Below, piece by piece: positions 18,689 through 24,616 of a stretch of 64,000 nt of DNA. The DNA is taken from assembly GCA_023653055.1 (NCBI GenBank), contig JAMNXR010000007.1, forward strand, positions 62,001 to 126,000. The letters are read 5' to 3'. The notes beneath the pieces are model-generated. The model made no database searches, was not told the origin of the DNA, and worked only from the letters and a program-made list of their open reading frames with translations. Each line of letters starts with the position of its first letter. The first letter of the stretch is position 1. The position numbers and the translations under genes are program-made. The DNA is from Burkholderiaceae bacterium. GTDB taxonomy: Bacteria; Pseudomonadota; Gammaproteobacteria; Burkholderiales; Burkholderiaceae_B.

Positions 18689-19294
18689 ATGGATCAATCC
18701 CAACGCACACCTGAAACGGTCACTGACCTCTCCAATCAGTTTTTGATGGCGATGCCAGGTATGGTTTCTGGGGATCTTGCTGGAACCGTCATTTATCTGT
18801 GCGAGCACACTGCAAAAGGCGCTCTAGGACTGGTGATTAACCGGCCGACTGACCTGAGCGTGGCCGGTTTACTTGAAAAAATCGACCTAAAGTCTGAGAG
18901 TGCGCCCGGGCAGAGTGCGGATCAACAGGCTGCAGAGAGCCCTGCGGTGTTTTTTGGCGGTCCCGTTCAGACAGATCGTGGTTTTGTATTGCATTTTCCT
19001 GCAGGTGATTACAGCTCAAGTATCAAGCTGGGCCGTTTAGCGCTGACAACCTCGCGCGACGTCCTGGAGGCTGTGGCGCATGGAAACGGCCCCGAGCAGC
19101 TGTTTGTGACGCTTGGTTATGCGGGTTGGGGTGCAGGCCAGCTCGAAAATGAGCTGGCGCAAAATGCCTGGTTGACCGTCGCAGCGCAAGAAAACATTAT
19201 TTTTGATCTTCCACCTCAAGACCGTTATCCCGCTGCGCTAAAGCTGCTGGGGATCGATCCGGTCATGCTGACCGGTGCAGCGGGCCATGCCTGA
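18689..19294 (+). CDS. YqgE/AlgH family protein (DUF179)
   Basis: Cytoplasmic protein of 201 aa. Family hallmarks: FLMAMPGMVSGDLAGTVIYLCEH, GALGLVINRPT, FFGGPVQTDRGFVLH and LGYAGWGAGQLENEL. Biochemical function is not established; the family is widely linked to ruvX, and here too it overlaps ruvX by 8 bases. Confidence 0.9.
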   Translation: MDQSQRTPETVTDLSNQFLMAMPGMVSGDLAGTVIYLCEHTAKGALGLVINRPTDLSVAGLLEKIDLKSESAPGQSADQQAAESPAVFFGGPVQTDRGFVLHFPAGDYSSSIKLGRLALTTSRDVLEAVAHGNGPEQLFVTLGYAGWGAGQLENELAQNAWLTVAAQENIIFDLPPQDRYPAALKLLGIDPVMLTGAAGHA

Positions 19295-19679
19295 AGAAAC
19301 ACTTCTGGCTTTTGATTATGGCGCCAAAAAACTAGGGGTCGCGCTGGGCAATACCTTGCTCAAACAGGCGCATCCGCTAGACATCATTTTGGAAGCCACG
19401 CGTGACGGTCGTTTTGCGCGGGTCGAGGCCTTGCTCAAACGCTGGCAGCCAGAACGATTGGTGGTGGGGTTGGCACTTGCGACGGATGGCAGTGAGCAAT
19501 ACGCGAGTCAACACTGCCGCCGGTTTGCCCGCCAACTCGAGGGGCGTTTTGGTTTACCCGTCGTCTTGGTTGATGAGCGAGGGTCGAGTGTCCAGGCCCA
19601 AAGAATCACGGGAAGCGCACCCGATGATGCGGTGGCGGCGGCTATCATTTTGCAGCGCTATTTTGATGCGTTGACCTAA
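19287..19679 (+). CDS. ruvX: Putative pre-16S rRNA nuclease / Holliday junction resolvase-like RuvX (YqgF)
   Basis: RNase H-fold nuclease of 130 aa from the ATG at 19287. Acidic catalytic residues are present in FDYGAKKLGVALG (N-terminus), DERGSSVQAQ and DDAVAAAIIL (C-terminus). It is needed for 16S rRNA 5'-end maturation in E. coli. A GTG four codons upstream is a less likely start. Overlaps yqgE. In many Burkholderiales pyrR lies between this gene and pyrB; here only 23 bases separate them. Confidence 0.88.
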   Translation: MPEETLLAFDYGAKKLGVALGNTLLKQAHPLDIILEATRDGRFARVEALLKRWQPERLVVGLALATDGSEQYASQHCRRFARQLEGRFGLPVVLVDERGSSVQAQRITGSAPDDAVAAAIILQRYFDALT

Positions 19680-19702: not shown

Positions 19703-20590
19703 ATGCGCAACCCTCAACTAAACCTAAACGGCGCGCTCACACATCTGCTCACGACCGAAGGTCTGTCGCGTGCGATCTTGACGCGTATTCTCGACACGAC
19801 TGCGTTGTTTCTCACGCCAACGGAAGGTGCGTGCCAAAACACACCGCTGCTGCAAGGCAAAAAGGTGCTGAGTCTTGTAGACGCTTGCTTGGTTGATGAG
19901 GCGTCACCAGTTGTTAGGGACTTTGAACGTGCAGCCCAGCGGTTGTCCGCACAGTGGCAGGGGATCCAAACACTGGATTTTTCCGCATTTGCTGCGGGTA
20001 AAGGTCCGCAGGCCGATATCGTCGTGCTACGGACGGAGGTGAGCGGTGTGCCGCATTGGATGGCACAGCAACTTGATAGTCGTACACACATTATTAACGC
20101 GGGGGATGGGTGCCATGCGGAGCCGATATCTGCGTTATTGGACATGCACGCTATCCGCCGCGCAAAAGAAAATTTTGCCAATCTCACCGTGGTCTTGGTG
20201 GGCGATGTGTTGCATTCGCGCCGGGCGCGTTCCTGCATTCATGCACTCACCACGCTGTGTGTTGCCGAGGTACGTGCGGTAGGGCCGTTGACCTTATTGC
20301 CTGAAGGATTGGCGCAGTTAGGGGTGCGCGCATACACGGATATGGCTGAGGGCCTGCGAGAGGCTGACGTGATTATTATGCTGGATCTGGGGCATACGGC
20401 TATTGCGCGTGCGTGCGTGCCTTCAGCGCGAGAGTTCGTTAAGTGTTATGGGCTCACAGACGAAAAATTTTCCTATGCCAAACCTGATTGCCTGGTGCTC
20501 GGGACTGAAACTGATGGCGTGGTGCAAAAGCTTGCCAGTGAAGCGGTGCACATGGCTGTGATGAGCTTTGTTGCGGGGGCGTCGGTATGA
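19703..20590 (+). CDS. Aspartate carbamoyltransferase homologue lacking catalytic motifs (pseudo-PyrB)
   Basis: 295 aa, clearly a PyrB homologue over its whole length: NPQLN-GALTHLL at the N-terminus, INAGDG at 131-136, LVGDVLHSRRARS at 165-177, ADVIIML at 221-227. The carbamoyl-phosphate motif STRTR is replaced by SPVVR (68-72). The mobile loop that carries the catalytic Lys is about ten residues short (around 98-105). HPTQ reads EPIS (140-143). The aspartate-binding RxQxER segment reads DLGHTA (228-233). The HPxPxxRG segment reads GTETDG (267-272). R110 and the R near 174 remain. With these losses it should not catalyse carbamoyl transfer. The frame is intact with no stop or frameshift. It overlaps the pyrC' homologue by 4 bases, so it may still act as a structural or regulatory partner. 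Confidence 0.8.
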   Translation: MRNPQLNLNGALTHLLTTEGLSRAILTRILDTTALFLTPTEGACQNTPLLQGKKVLSLVDACLVDEASPVVRDFERAAQRLSAQWQGIQTLDFSAFAAGKGPQADIVVLRTEVSGVPHWMAQQLDSRTHIINAGDGCHAEPISALLDMHAIRRAKENFANLTVVLVGDVLHSRRARSCIHALTTLCVAEVRAVGPLTLLPEGLAQLGVRAYTDMAEGLREADVIIMLDLGHTAIARACVPSAREFVKCYGLTDEKFSYAKPDCLVLGTETDGVVQKLASEAVHMAVMSFVAGASV

Positions 20591-21825
20591 GGCTGTGTAT
20601 TCGACAGGGACGTGTCATTGACCCCACAAACGGAATGGATGCGCGAGCGGATATCTGCACTGCTGAGGGCAGAATTGTTGCGGTCGGAGCCGTTCCAGAG
20701 GGCTTTGTCGCGGACAAGGTGCTTGACGCTTCTGGCATGCTTGTGCTGCCCGGACTCGTTGACCTGTGCGCACGTGTAGCGACGTCTGGTGATGCTTTCG
20801 GCGCCGCCTTGGCCGGCGGTGTGACGAGTTTGGTGCAGCCGCCAGAGATGATGCGGGTGCCGATACCGACGCTCAGCCCGCAGGTCAATGTCTATCACTT
20901 GGGTGCGTTGACCGTGGACTTGAAGGGGCAGGCCTTGACTGAAATGGTCAGGCTGGCCGAAGCAGGCTGCGTGGCGTTCTCCCAAGGCAATTCGCCTGTG
21001 CAAGACACCGCGATGCTCTTGCGTGCCATGCAGTATGCAAAAACGTTTGATTATGCGGTGTGGTGTCGGCCGCAAGATGCGTGGCTCTCACGCGGTGGTG
21101 TGATTGCGAGCGGTGCGTATGCGTCTCGTCTAGGTTTGACCGAGATCCCGGTAGAAGCTGAGACGGTTGCGTGTCAGACCTTGCTTGCGTTGCAACGCGC
21201 CACGGGCGTGCGTCTGCATCTGTGTCGCTTGTCGAGTGCCGAGGCGGTTGATATGGTGCGCAAAGCCAAAAAACTAGGGCAAGCGATCTCGTGTGATGTG
21301 ACTGCAAATAATCTGCATCTCACGGATGTTGATATTGGTTTCTACGACAGTCATTTTCGTCTCGATCCGCCGTTGCGGGGTCAGCGAGATCGCGATGCGC
21401 TTCGACTTGGGCTGTTAGACGGTACGATTGATGCCGTGTGCTCGGATCACAGCGCGCTGACGGAGTCAGACAAAAACCGGCCCTTTGTCGATGCTGTGCC
21501 GGGGTCAACGGGTCTGGAGTTGTTGCTTTCACTCACGCTCAAGTGGGCACAAGATGCGCGGGTGCCGCTGAGTGAAGCGTTCAAACGGGTGACGTGTGGT
21601 CCAGGTCAAGTGCTCGCGCACACTGGATCCATCCCACAGCCAGGAACGCTCTCTGTGGGGGCTTCGGCGGATGTGTGCATCGTCGATCCAGAGGCGTATT
21701 GGTTCGTCAGTCGTGAAAATATTGTCAGTCAAAGTCAAAGTACGCCCTTTTTGGGTAGAGAGTTACCAGGTCGCGTGCGTGCAACGTTATTGCACGGGCA
21801 GGTGGTTTGGGAGCAGAGGTCGTGA
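20587..21825 (+). CDS. Dihydroorotase-like protein PyrC' (non-catalytic type)
   Basis: 412 aa amidohydrolase-fold protein. In active dihydroorotases the first metal site is DxHxH; here residues 59-62 read DLCA, so both His ligands are absent, and the later ATDHAPH motif reads CSDHSAL (from residue 285). Such inactive PyrC' (PyrX) subunits are known in Pseudomonas and beta-proteobacteria, where they assemble with PyrB into a dodecameric ATCase. What is odd is that the adjacent PyrB homologue also looks dead. Overlaps pyrB (ATGA) and the acyltransferase (GTGA). Confidence 0.85.
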   Translation: MRLCIRQGRVIDPTNGMDARADICTAEGRIVAVGAVPEGFVADKVLDASGMLVLPGLVDLCARVATSGDAFGAALAGGVTSLVQPPEMMRVPIPTLSPQVNVYHLGALTVDLKGQALTEMVRLAEAGCVAFSQGNSPVQDTAMLLRAMQYAKTFDYAVWCRPQDAWLSRGGVIASGAYASRLGLTEIPVEAETVACQTLLALQRATGVRLHLCRLSSAEAVDMVRKAKKLGQAISCDVTANNLHLTDVDIGFYDSHFRLDPPLRGQRDRDALRLGLLDGTIDAVCSDHSALTESDKNRPFVDAVPGSTGLELLLSLTLKWAQDARVPLSEAFKRVTCGPGQVLAHTGSIPQPGTLSVGASADVCIVDPEAYWFVSRENIVSQSQSTPFLGRELPGRVRATLLHGQVVWEQRS

Positions 21826-22568
21826 AGGCATTACGCTTTTCTTTGAGGGCATTGCTGGTCTTGTCGTGGGTCATGCTCGGCCTGAGCGTGATTGCCTTGA
21901 TCTTTCCGTTGTTAACGCGTTCAGGCCGTTTGCGGACCAAGCAATATTGGTCGGTGGTTTTACTGTGGCTCTCCGGCGTGCGGGTGTCGCATTCTGGTGA
22001 ACCGCTGCGCAATGGGCCCGTGTTGTGGGTCGTCAATCACGTGTCTTGGTTAGATATTTTTGCGGTGAATACCGTGCGCGCGGTGGTCTTTATCGCAAAA
22101 AGCGAAATTCGCCAATGGCCTTTGTTGGGTTGGCTCGCACGCGGTGCAGGCTCAATTTTTATCGAGCGAGCCTCGCGTCATGCTGTGCAAAAAGTTGGCC
22201 GCGAGATGCAAGAAATCTTTGAGCTTGAGCAAGTGGTCGGATTATTTCCTGAGGGCACGACGTCTCAAGGTTACGATTTGTTACCTTTTTACGCCAACCT
22301 GTTTGAGCCTGCCCGGCGTGCAAATGTCCCGATACAACCCGTCGCCTTATTATTTTTTCATCATGACAAAAGAAGTGATTTTGCAGCGTTTGTCGGCGAA
22401 GAAAATTTAATCCAAAATCTTTGGAAAGTCTTGGGCGGGACGGGTATCCGTATCGAGGTGGAGTTTTTAGCGCCGATTTGGGTGCCGGATGGGCAGCCCG
22501 CGCCGGCGCGCGCAGCGTTAGGCGCGCGTGCCCATCAAGTTCTAAGGGAAGTGGTATTGAGGCGCTAG
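21822..22568 (+). CDS. 1-acyl-sn-glycerol-3-phosphate acyltransferase (PlsC family)
   Basis: Membrane-bound lysophospholipid acyltransferase, 248 aa from the GTG at 21822 that overlaps the pyrC' stop (GTGA). An N-terminal hydrophobic anchor spans residues 8-32. Motif I, NHVSWLD (72-78), holds the catalytic HX4D; IFIERAS and LFPEGTTSQG are motifs II and III. Makes phosphatidic acid or acylates a related lysolipid. Burkholderiales often carry plsC after pyrC, so this is expected context. Confidence 0.87.
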   Translation: MKALRFSLRALLVLSWVMLGLSVIALIFPLLTRSGRLRTKQYWSVVLLWLSGVRVSHSGEPLRNGPVLWVVNHVSWLDIFAVNTVRAVVFIAKSEIRQWPLLGWLARGAGSIFIERASRHAVQKVGREMQEIFELEQVVGLFPEGTTSQGYDLLPFYANLFEPARRANVPIQPVALLFFHHDKRSDFAAFVGEENLIQNLWKVLGGTGIRIEVEFLAPIWVPDGQPAPARAALGARAHQVLREVVLRR

Positions 22569-22602: not shown

Positions 22603-23637
22603 TCAGCAGCTTTGGCAGCTGGGATGTGCACGTAGTCGTGAATACACGCCTAAGGCATTATTGGCAAAGATCTTTTTCTTTTGTGAGGCATCTGCCGACG
22701 GGGATGCGTCGATATAACGACGGGTGTCATCAAAGTAAAAATTGGTCAGAGGATCAATACCCTGAACAGCGCCGACGGTTTCTGACGCAAACAGAATGTT
22801 TTTATTGGGTACCACGCGCAGCAATAAATCGATGCCAGGCTGGTGGTAGACGCAGGTGTCAAAAAATACGTTGTTCAGGACCTTTTCCTCAAGCGAGGAA
22901 ATCCCCATGTCGAGCGCCATGCCGCGATAGCGACCCCAGTGGTAAGGGGCTGCGCCACCACCGTGTGGGATGATGAACTTGAGCGTCGGAAAATCTTTAA
23001 AGATATCCGAGGTCATAAACTGCACAAAGGCCGTCGTGTCACCGTTGATGTAGTGGGTCGCGACCGCATTGAAATGCGGATTGCATGAGCCGCTGACATG
23101 GATCATGGCCGGCACGTCAAGTTCAACCATTTTTTCGTAGAGGGGATACCACCATTTTTTATCCCAGAGTGGCGGATCGCTCCAATGCCCACCTGTGGGG
23201 TCCGGATTGATATTGGCGCCGATAAAACCAAACTCATTGACGCAACGCTCGAGCTCCTCGATGACGCGCTTGCCCGGTGCGACGCCAGCGGCCTGTGGCA
23301 GCTGGCAGACGCCGATGAAGTGCTCTGGGTAGAGTTTGCACACGCGGTTGATTAGCTCATTGTTGTAGCGCGCCCAGACCACATTGGTGTCTTCATTACC
23401 CATATGGTGGTCCATTGCGACCGCCTTGGGCGAGAAAATCGTCATGTCGATGCCGCGCTCTTTCATGATGCGCAACTGATTGTTATCGATGCCATGACGG
23501 ATTTCCTCGTCGGACACCGCAGGCGGTGGCGCGGTCGGTGCCTGACCGGTCCGCTGAAATTCAGCGATTTGGTCTGCACGAAATTTGGCAACCTGAGGTG
23601 GGGTCGTGGTGAAGTGGCCGTGGCAATCAATAATCAT
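22603..23637 (-). CDS. ligJ: 4-oxalomesaconate hydratase, LigJ-type amidohydrolase
   Basis: 344 aa amidohydrolase-2 family member. The N-terminus IIDCHGH (H6, H8) gives the metal-binding HxH. Several blocks match LigJ of the protocatechuate 4,5-cleavage pathway: NINPDPTGGHW, YEKMVELDVPAMIHVS, IPHGGGAAPYHWGR, FFDTCVYHQPGIDLL and ILFASE. LigJ hydrates 4-oxalomesaconate to carboxy-hydroxy-oxoadipate on the route from gallate, syringate or protocatechuate to pyruvate and oxaloacetate. No other ring-cleavage pathway gene is next to it in this window; the divergent alpha/beta hydrolase is the only candidate partner. A related decarboxylase-type activity cannot be excluded. Confidence 0.8.
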   Translation of the reverse strand: MIIDCHGHFTTTPPQVAKFRADQIAEFQRTGQAPTAPPPAVSDEEIRHGIDNNQLRIMKERGIDMTIFSPKAVAMDHHMGNEDTNVVWARYNNELINRVCKLYPEHFIGVCQLPQAAGVAPGKRVIEELERCVNEFGFIGANINPDPTGGHWSDPPLWDKKWWYPLYEKMVELDVPAMIHVSGSCNPHFNAVATHYINGDTTAFVQFMTSDIFKDFPTLKFIIPHGGGAAPYHWGRYRGMALDMGISSLEEKVLNNVFFDTCVYHQPGIDLLLRVVPNKNILFASETVGAVQGIDPLTNFYFDDTRRYIDASPSADASQKKKIFANNALGVYSRLRAHPSCQSC

Positions 23638-23657
23638 GTTTGAGCTCAGTCAACAAT

Positions 23658-23682
23658 CAAAATTGCACTTTACACAATTTTG
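23658..23682. promoter_or_regulatory. Inverted repeat between ligJ and the hydrolase gene, possible operator
   Basis: Eight-base arms CAAAATTG (23658-23665) and its exact reverse complement (23675-23682) are separated by 9 bases. It sits 21 bases before the ligJ start and just upstream of a good promoter for the divergent gene. Placement suits a regulator controlling both genes. No regulator gene is nearby. Confidence 0.4.
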
Positions 23683-23688
23683 CTGAGT

Positions 23689-23716
23689 TTGACGGGCTTG
23701 CCCATTGGGATACTAT
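23689..23716 (+). promoter_or_regulatory. Sigma70-like promoter for the alpha/beta hydrolase
   Basis: TTGACG at 23689-23694, then a 16-base spacer, then TACTAT at 23711-23716. The start codon follows 45 bases after the -10 element. A good match by eye; not scored. Confidence 0.5.
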
Positions 23717-23761
23717 CTTGCGAGCTTAATGTTTGTTTTTTGCCACAGAGGAACAGTTGCC

Positions 23762-24616
23762 ATGTCCAGCCCCGTTAATCAGCAAACTCTTGACTGGATC
23801 GCCGAGTTTGAGGCGTGCGCTACACGTCATGTTGTCACCGTAGGGGAGCACCAAGTAAGTTGGCGGCAGTTCGGAGAAGGACCTCCCCTCGTTCTGATTC
23901 ATGGGGGTCATGGCAGTTGGCTGCATTGGGCGCGCAATATTGAGGCGCTTTCCAAGGAGTTCTCTCTGTGGATTCCAAACCTGGCAGGCTACGGTGACTC
24001 TAGCGATCCCAGGTTTGATGATTTTTCAACGATGGTGGATGTCACGGCTGACTGTTTAACGCAGCTGTTCGGAGCAGACACGCCCTTTGATCTGGCGGGA
24101 TTTTCGTTCGGAGGGTTGGTGTCTGCCAATGTGGCGGCCAAGGGCTTACCGGTGCGTCGTTTGGCCTTGCTAGGGCCGGGTGGTCATGGTGGTCCGCGTC
24201 GTGAACGTGGCAAGCTCATCAACTGGAAGCGTGCCGAGTCGGACGAAGCACTGATCGAAGCAATGCGCTTTAATCTCTGGGCACATATGATTTATGCCGA
24301 TGCGCAAATCGATCCCTTTGCGATGGGGATTCACACTTACTCTTGCATCAATACGCGTTTTCGCAGCCGGGGTATTTCGGGTCGCGGCTTATTAGGCCCC
24401 GCACTGGATGACTACAGTGGAGAGACGCTGATCATCTGGGGGGAGCATGACATCACGTGCACGCCTGAGTATCTGATGACCCATATGATTGCCGGGCAGG
24501 CGAGGCGCCAGGGCGTGATTTTGCCGGAGGTCGGGCATTGGGTGAATTACGAGGCAGCAGAGCCCGTCAATGCGTTATTGAAAACCTGGTTCCTAGAGGG
24601 TCAGGTCGCTGCGTAA
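23762..24616 (+). CDS. Alpha/beta hydrolase
   Basis: 284 aa from the ATG at 23762. Oxyanion segment HGGHGSW (47-53), nucleophile elbow GFSFGG with Ser115, acid in WGEHD, and His in VGHWVN near the C-terminus form a complete triad. The shape resembles meta-cleavage-product hydrolases and related esterases, which would fit the divergent ligJ, but substrate is not determined. The frame is open 19 codons upstream of the chosen start, but that part covers the -10 region. No signal peptide. Confidence 0.75.
   Translation: MSSPVNQQTLDWIAEFEACATRHVVTVGEHQVSWRQFGEGPPLVLIHGGHGSWLHWARNIEALSKEFSLWIPNLAGYGDSSDPRFDDFSTMVDVTADCLTQLFGADTPFDLAGFSFGGLVSANVAAKGLPVRRLALLGPGGHGGPRRERGKLINWKRAESDEALIEAMRFNLWAHMIYADAQIDPFAMGIHTYSCINTRFRSRGISGRGLLGPALDDYSGETLIIWGEHDITCTPEYLMTHMIAGQARRQGVILPEVGHWVNYEAAEPVNALLKTWFLEGQVAA

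Follow-up and report, generated by a model that had tools for sequence, protein, structure and literature searches.

The window, a stretch of 64,000 nucleotides on contig C17 of genome G000 (2.84 Mb), carries a pyrB-pyrC' gene pair whose products are probably, though by no means certainly, what remains of a class A2 aspartate carbamoyltransferase (ATCase) heteromer that lost catalysis once this had become redundant and that has been kept for a non-catalytic task. ATCase is a textbook enzyme. The PyrB chain encoded in the window lacks its catalytic motifs (such chains are called dead below), its frame is open and under purifying selection, and open PyrB frames without these motifs recur in 55 other genomes of the family.

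The pair is part of a conserved gene cluster on the plus strand with the order yqgE, ruvX, pyrB, pyrC', plsC. The cluster opens with a yqgE homologue (18689..19294), orthologues of which (54-95% identical) occupy this position in the relatives read, and continues with a ruvX (yqgF) homologue (19275..19679), which is separated by a 23-base gap from pyrB (19703..20590; 295 amino acids). The pyrC' gene (20587..21825; 412 amino acids) overlaps pyrB by four bases (ATGA), and a plsC-like acyltransferase gene (21807..22568; alternative GTG start at 21822) closes the neighbourhood. Of the two named relatives that we compared, an Acidiferrobacter MAG and Pseudomonas oryzihabitans, both of them distant, the latter has pyrB and pyrC' adjacent and in the same order (L037). 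Next to plsC, positions 22603-24616 of the window hold an amidohydrolase-type gene, which we take to resemble 4-oxalomesaconate hydratase, and an alpha/beta hydrolase gene; both appear to belong to an aromatic degradation set.

Pfam recognises both PyrB and PyrC' faintly. The nearest NCBIfam model for PyrB is NF002032, the ATCase catalytic subunit; the window protein scores 152.9 bits against a cut-off of 263 bits and hence falls outside this equivalog. As the first-pass annotation had reported, the catalytic motifs have vanished from an intact frame: none of the five motifs STRTR, KGE, HPTQ, RxQxER and HPGP is present in the 295 codons. With E. coli PyrB as the residue ruler, the equivalents of S52-T55, S80, K84, H134, Q137, R229, Q231 and 266-269 are changed or lost, while those of R105 and R167 are retained, as are the N-terminal block, the R105 region, NAGDG, VGD..HS..ARS..H..TTL and LLP.GL..LGVR. 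The loss of the STRTR region stands, but its replacement by SPVVR, as originally proposed, is one of several possible pairings, since the pairing of residues within this region depends on the alignment and the SPVVR pairing would retain the serine.

All 12 long ATCases and all 28 intact PyrBs that served as controls keep S52-T55, K84, H134, Q137, R229 and Q231. Of the 56 dead PyrBs that we found, 48 entered the alignment; the remaining eight, including two truncated at a contig start, were checked by motif only. The equivalents of K84, H134, Q137 and R229 are absent from each of the 48 aligned chains, and few of them retain S52 (3), T53 (4), R54 (4), T55 (1) or Q231 (8); R167 is kept in 24 and R105 in 43. 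The arginine of the ARS motif is present in 48 of 48, and R167 aligns instead with the arginine of HSR. The phosphate loop is gone, with length and sequence of what replaces it varying among the dead PyrBs. In g4 (n = 34), 38 alignment columns are occupied to at least 97% by a single residue unlike that of intact PyrB (for example, H134 is replaced by D and R229 by P in all 34 chains) and 77 columns retain the intact residue; the replacement residues differ from clade to clade. The chains of a five-species dead clade within the genus of the window (g1) are shortened to 247-299 amino acids. The stop codons or frameshifts of a pseudogene are absent from the window pair, and none were seen in the 56 dead pairs read; a contig start truncates PyrB in two of these and a contig end truncates PyrC' in one. 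Two objections that the first-pass annotation had named as fatal to its reading, a sequencing error and a displacement of the motifs, can both be dismissed, the former by the absence of these motifs from the 55 other genomes (two partly readable because of a contig start) and the latter by the alignments.

PyrC' scores 543.2 bits against NF005791 (cut-off 442) and is thus a member of that family, but it lacks the metal ligands: HxH and the second histidine of DHxPH are missing. The same residues are missing from the PyrC' proteins of lineages with an intact PyrB. While the absence of HxH and DHAPH noted at first inspection was correct as regards HxH and the second histidine, it is not special to the dead pair but ancestral. 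Of the attributes of class A2, a dodecamer of six PyrB and six PyrC' chains, a pyrB gene followed by a pyrC' without metal ligands is found here; the active PyrB chain is not, as far as its motifs tell. Shortened forms of PyrC' occur in G014 and G145. Both genes are traps for annotation: PyrC' passes a model named dihydroorotase despite its absent metal ligands, and the dead PyrB could be mistaken for the ATCase of the pathway.

The possibility that the genome has no second ATCase was ruled out by the search for further pyrB and pyrC genes that the first-pass annotation had recommended. Contig C23 encodes a long ATCase that exceeds the cut-off of NF008853 and has all five motifs, and contig C13 encodes a stand-alone PyrC (TIGR00856 type) that is above cut-off, open and equipped with HxH. 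The presence of both in the same genome indicates that the pyrimidine pathway has moved away from the pair, as had been suspected.

Across the 268 genomes of our family set, a long ATCase above cut-off was detected in 172, and 174 have a match at 1e-60. Among the 32 genomes of g1, six possess the long enzyme (G000, G012, G014, G021, G022, G029), each together with a dead PyrB; of the remaining 26, 25 have a PyrB in which all five motifs are present, and in G020 (65% complete) the PyrB frame contains a TAG. In the other genera, PyrB exceeds the NF002032 cut-off in 60 of the 68 genomes without a long ATCase, motifs not being checked individually. The other eight comprise two genes split in two (G106, G207), one at a contig end (G208), one dead PyrB (G093; 57% complete), three genomes with weak matches only (G150, G222, G241; 77-88% complete) and one with no match (G230; 95% complete). 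Long ATCase and intact PyrB are therefore near-mutually exclusive in the family, G142 and G245 being the exceptions seen. The split PyrB of G106 (99% complete; C1:1069533-1070428) occurs without a long-ATCase match, and this genome would be devoid of ATCase unless the split is an assembly error.

PyrC' was searched for at 1e-60 in 162 of the 174 genomes with a long ATCase; it is kept in 60 and was not found at this threshold in 102. The 60 keepers comprise 55 genomes with an open dead PyrB, one with a broken PyrB (G141), two with an intact PyrB (G142, G245) and two without an adjacent PyrB (G249, G250). In the four PyrC'-less loci that we read (G032, G033, G035, G036), plsC directly follows ruvX, and no PyrB was found in any of these four genomes. 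The pair is thus kept in some lineages with a long ATCase and gone from others. The 56 dead pairs read, which include that of G093, a genome without a long-ATCase match, are distributed over g1 (6), g4 (41), g35 (7) and g63 (2); another ATCase accompanies the open dead PyrB in 55 of the 56 genomes, the exception being G093. In g4, 41 of 43 genomes have PyrC', and in all 41 PyrB is dead and open, with truncation by a contig start in two; the PyrC' search gave no match in G071 (complete) and G087 (78% complete).

A few loci deviate from this pattern. G249 and G250 (L176, L132, L209) have a PyrC' of the intact lineage and a long ATCase, with no PyrB at its side; the frame beside PyrC' in G249 we take to be that of an FAD-type monooxygenase-like protein. 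In G141 (L201), PyrB is spread over two frames and yqgE over three, and PyrC' contains one stop, reflecting either real decay or assembly errors. In G142 (L169), a long ATCase accompanies an intact PyrB without an adjacent pyrR and a PyrC' that has a stop codon close to its end; this looks like the onset of the same process.

Genomes with an intact PyrB carry a pyrR-like gene between ruvX and pyrB in 27 of 28 cases, G142 being the exception. This gene encodes a phosphoribosyltransferase domain (PF00156; checked in G005), and from its place and motif we take it to be pyrR. Of the 64 further genomes inspected, only G020 has it at the locus; G069 and G079, which are cut before this point, and G249 and G250, which have no ruvX beside PyrC', are uninformative. 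As far as the locus itself is concerned, this suggests that the dead pair has left pyrimidine control.

A species tree built from YqgE, RuvX and PlsC of 47 genomes places the dead clade of five g1 species within intact g1 as sister to the intact G004 (support 100; several deeper genus nodes have 30-82). In the PyrB tree, this clade likewise emerges from intact g1 PyrBs, and the dead PyrBs of g4, g35 and g63 group with the intact PyrB of G142. From the two placements, it is likely that catalysis was lost at least two times independently. The placement of G014 differs between PyrB and PyrC', and it may represent a third loss. Since the intact G142 lies inside g35 in the species tree, catalysis may have been lost several times in g4, g35 and g63, or once and then regained in G142; the tree pattern could also stem from long-branch effects or transfer. 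In a tree of 12 sequences, the long ATCases of the dead g1 genomes and of G014 form one group, consistent with vertical descent and subsequent reciprocal loss.

We estimated selection with codon models (GY+F3X4, gap-free columns) for sets from g1, g4 and g35, leaving out G014 and g63. From g4, 22 of 41 pairs were used (G084 and G085 are divergent, ten loci are short and seven were fetched later or cut), and from g35 four of seven open pairs. Omega of the dead PyrB is 0.174 in g1 (n = 5), 0.240 in the closest three of these, 0.136 in g4 (n = 22) and 0.109 in g35 (n = 4); the corresponding values for PyrC' are 0.134, 0.166, 0.088 and 0.116. For comparison, six g1 genomes gave 0.017 for intact PyrB and 0.055 for its PyrC', and yqgE, ruvX and plsC range from 0.026 to 0.10. 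An omega of 1 was rejected in every gene and set, with 2*dlnL values for the dead PyrB of 301 (g1), 141 (closest three), 1600 (g4) and 295 (g35), the null value being confirmed as fixed at 1.000 for three of the dead-PyrB runs. Eight close g4 pairs, all of which diverged after the loss, have dN/dS values of 0.08-0.31 at dS of 0.12-0.49. Constraint is unevenly distributed along the chain: region 171-230 ranks among the parts under strongest constraint in each of the three clades (0.046-0.092), and constraint on the C-terminal helix is weak (0.16-0.44), in g35 indistinguishable from neutral (2*dlnL 2.3). Constraint on the dead PyrB is therefore relaxed six- to fourteenfold relative to intact PyrB, yet far from gone.

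With omega at 0.11-0.24 in three dead clades, the dead PyrBs do not evolve in the neutral manner (omega near 1) of a pseudogene. The dN/dS comparison of related PyrBs proposed in the first-pass annotation consequently speaks against the neutral decay that it had considered, although the relaxation is real and the relocation of the pathway, the other element of that option, is upheld. Its alternative, a scaffold or regulatory role, would seem the better of the two that it had offered.

The long ATCase and the separate PyrC make the ATCase step of the pair redundant; in lineages with the long enzyme, PyrB has usually lost its substrate-binding loops and the operon its pyrR, and the pair has either vanished or stays open. 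Where it is kept, purifying selection acts on the amino-acid sequences of both proteins (three clades). We envisage that PyrB and PyrC' would still fold and assemble together, and that the heteromer would be retained for a job other than catalysis, one possibly already held by the active complex. Our best guess, by analogy, is that this job is that of a nucleotide-responsive scaffold or regulator; we favour it because the parent complex is nucleotide-sensitive. The absence of the pair from most of the long-ATCase genomes tested (102 of 162) implies that the job is dispensable. If selection does keep both chains after catalysis has gone, the complex has another role, which can now be examined free of interference from the essential reaction. 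More speculatively, and with rather less than even confidence, class A2 complexes in general might carry a second, non-pyrimidine function in the assembled PyrB-PyrC', visible here after at least two catalytic losses with the heteromer still under selection; if true, this would help to explain why a dead PyrC' stands beside an active PyrB. The rates of PyrB and PyrC' covary in g4 (partial r 0.62), but PyrC' and plsC, for which no contact is expected, reach 0.53, so that this covariation is no proof of contact.

Slow decay, in which the pair became useless after the long ATCase took over and its open frames merely reflect a lag, is an unlikely reading, even if it would account for the lost active site, the shortened PyrBs of g1, the elevated omega, the many genomes without PyrC' and the broken locus of G141. 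It sits poorly with the dead but uninterrupted PyrB shared by all 41 g4 genomes that have PyrC' (truncated by a contig start in two), with the omega and likelihood difference of the 22 g4 genomes, and with the close g4 pairs that are still constrained after the loss; in its purely neutral form it is rejected by the codon models and these pairs. It is improbable, too, that the pocket was remodelled to take another anion or carry out another reaction, giving a protein with a new ligand or a new catalytic activity: the frequent retention of R105 and R167 and the residues newly fixed in g4 would fit, but the phosphate loop is lost and variable, and the new residues are not the same across clades. 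Polarity, by which pyrB and pyrC' would need translation solely to bring ribosomes to plsC, appeals to the overlapping genes of one conserved cluster; it bars stops and frameshifts but not amino-acid changes, a stop-free model with omega of 1 is already rejected by the codon test, and plsC simply follows ruvX in the four pair-less loci, which leaves polarity alone rejected and any such account very improbable. That the pair is still an ATCase through other residues deserves almost no credence given the four equivalents missing in 48 of 48 chains and the other ATCase in 55 of 56 genomes, for all that the modelled fold of PyrB matches ATCases.

What we favour, a heteromer retained without catalysis, can be set against systems already described. 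We came across no account of a dead PyrB together with a dead PyrC' in the open-access literature searched, outside of which most subscription papers lie. Burkholderia has two ATCase types in one genome, short with HPGP and long with HPLP (PMC4581275). Both kinds of gene likewise co-occur in the genomes studied here, and the short type is intact in G042 and G245; in the lineage of the window, by contrast, it is dead. In fungal CAD-like proteins, a pseudo-dihydroorotase domain is kept beside ATCase, similar to the situation here, but its ATCase partner is active (PMC7053772). The chains of the class A1 ATCase-dihydroorotase of Aquifex aeolicus (3d6n) are the best solved relatives of both PyrB and PyrC' by sequence, and 3d6n_B is the best fold match of our PyrB structure model (pLDDT 62.5, from a three-row alignment); the PyrC' model is worse (pLDDT 47.3), and neither is good enough for mapping an interface. 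Both Aquifex chains are active according to PMC7053772, and neither would be so here, by motif. The closest parallel is the class A2 ATCase of Pseudomonas, with homologous PyrB and PyrC' encoded by adjacent genes in the same order and a PyrC' without metal ligands. According to PMC7053772, both chains are required for assembly of the active P. aeruginosa complex, the PyrB chain alone being a monomer; PyrC' is given the role of keeping the active PyrB trimer intact, and the complex is destabilised by nucleotides. The pair in the window differs from it in that PyrB lacks the catalytic motifs and ATCase is provided by another gene.
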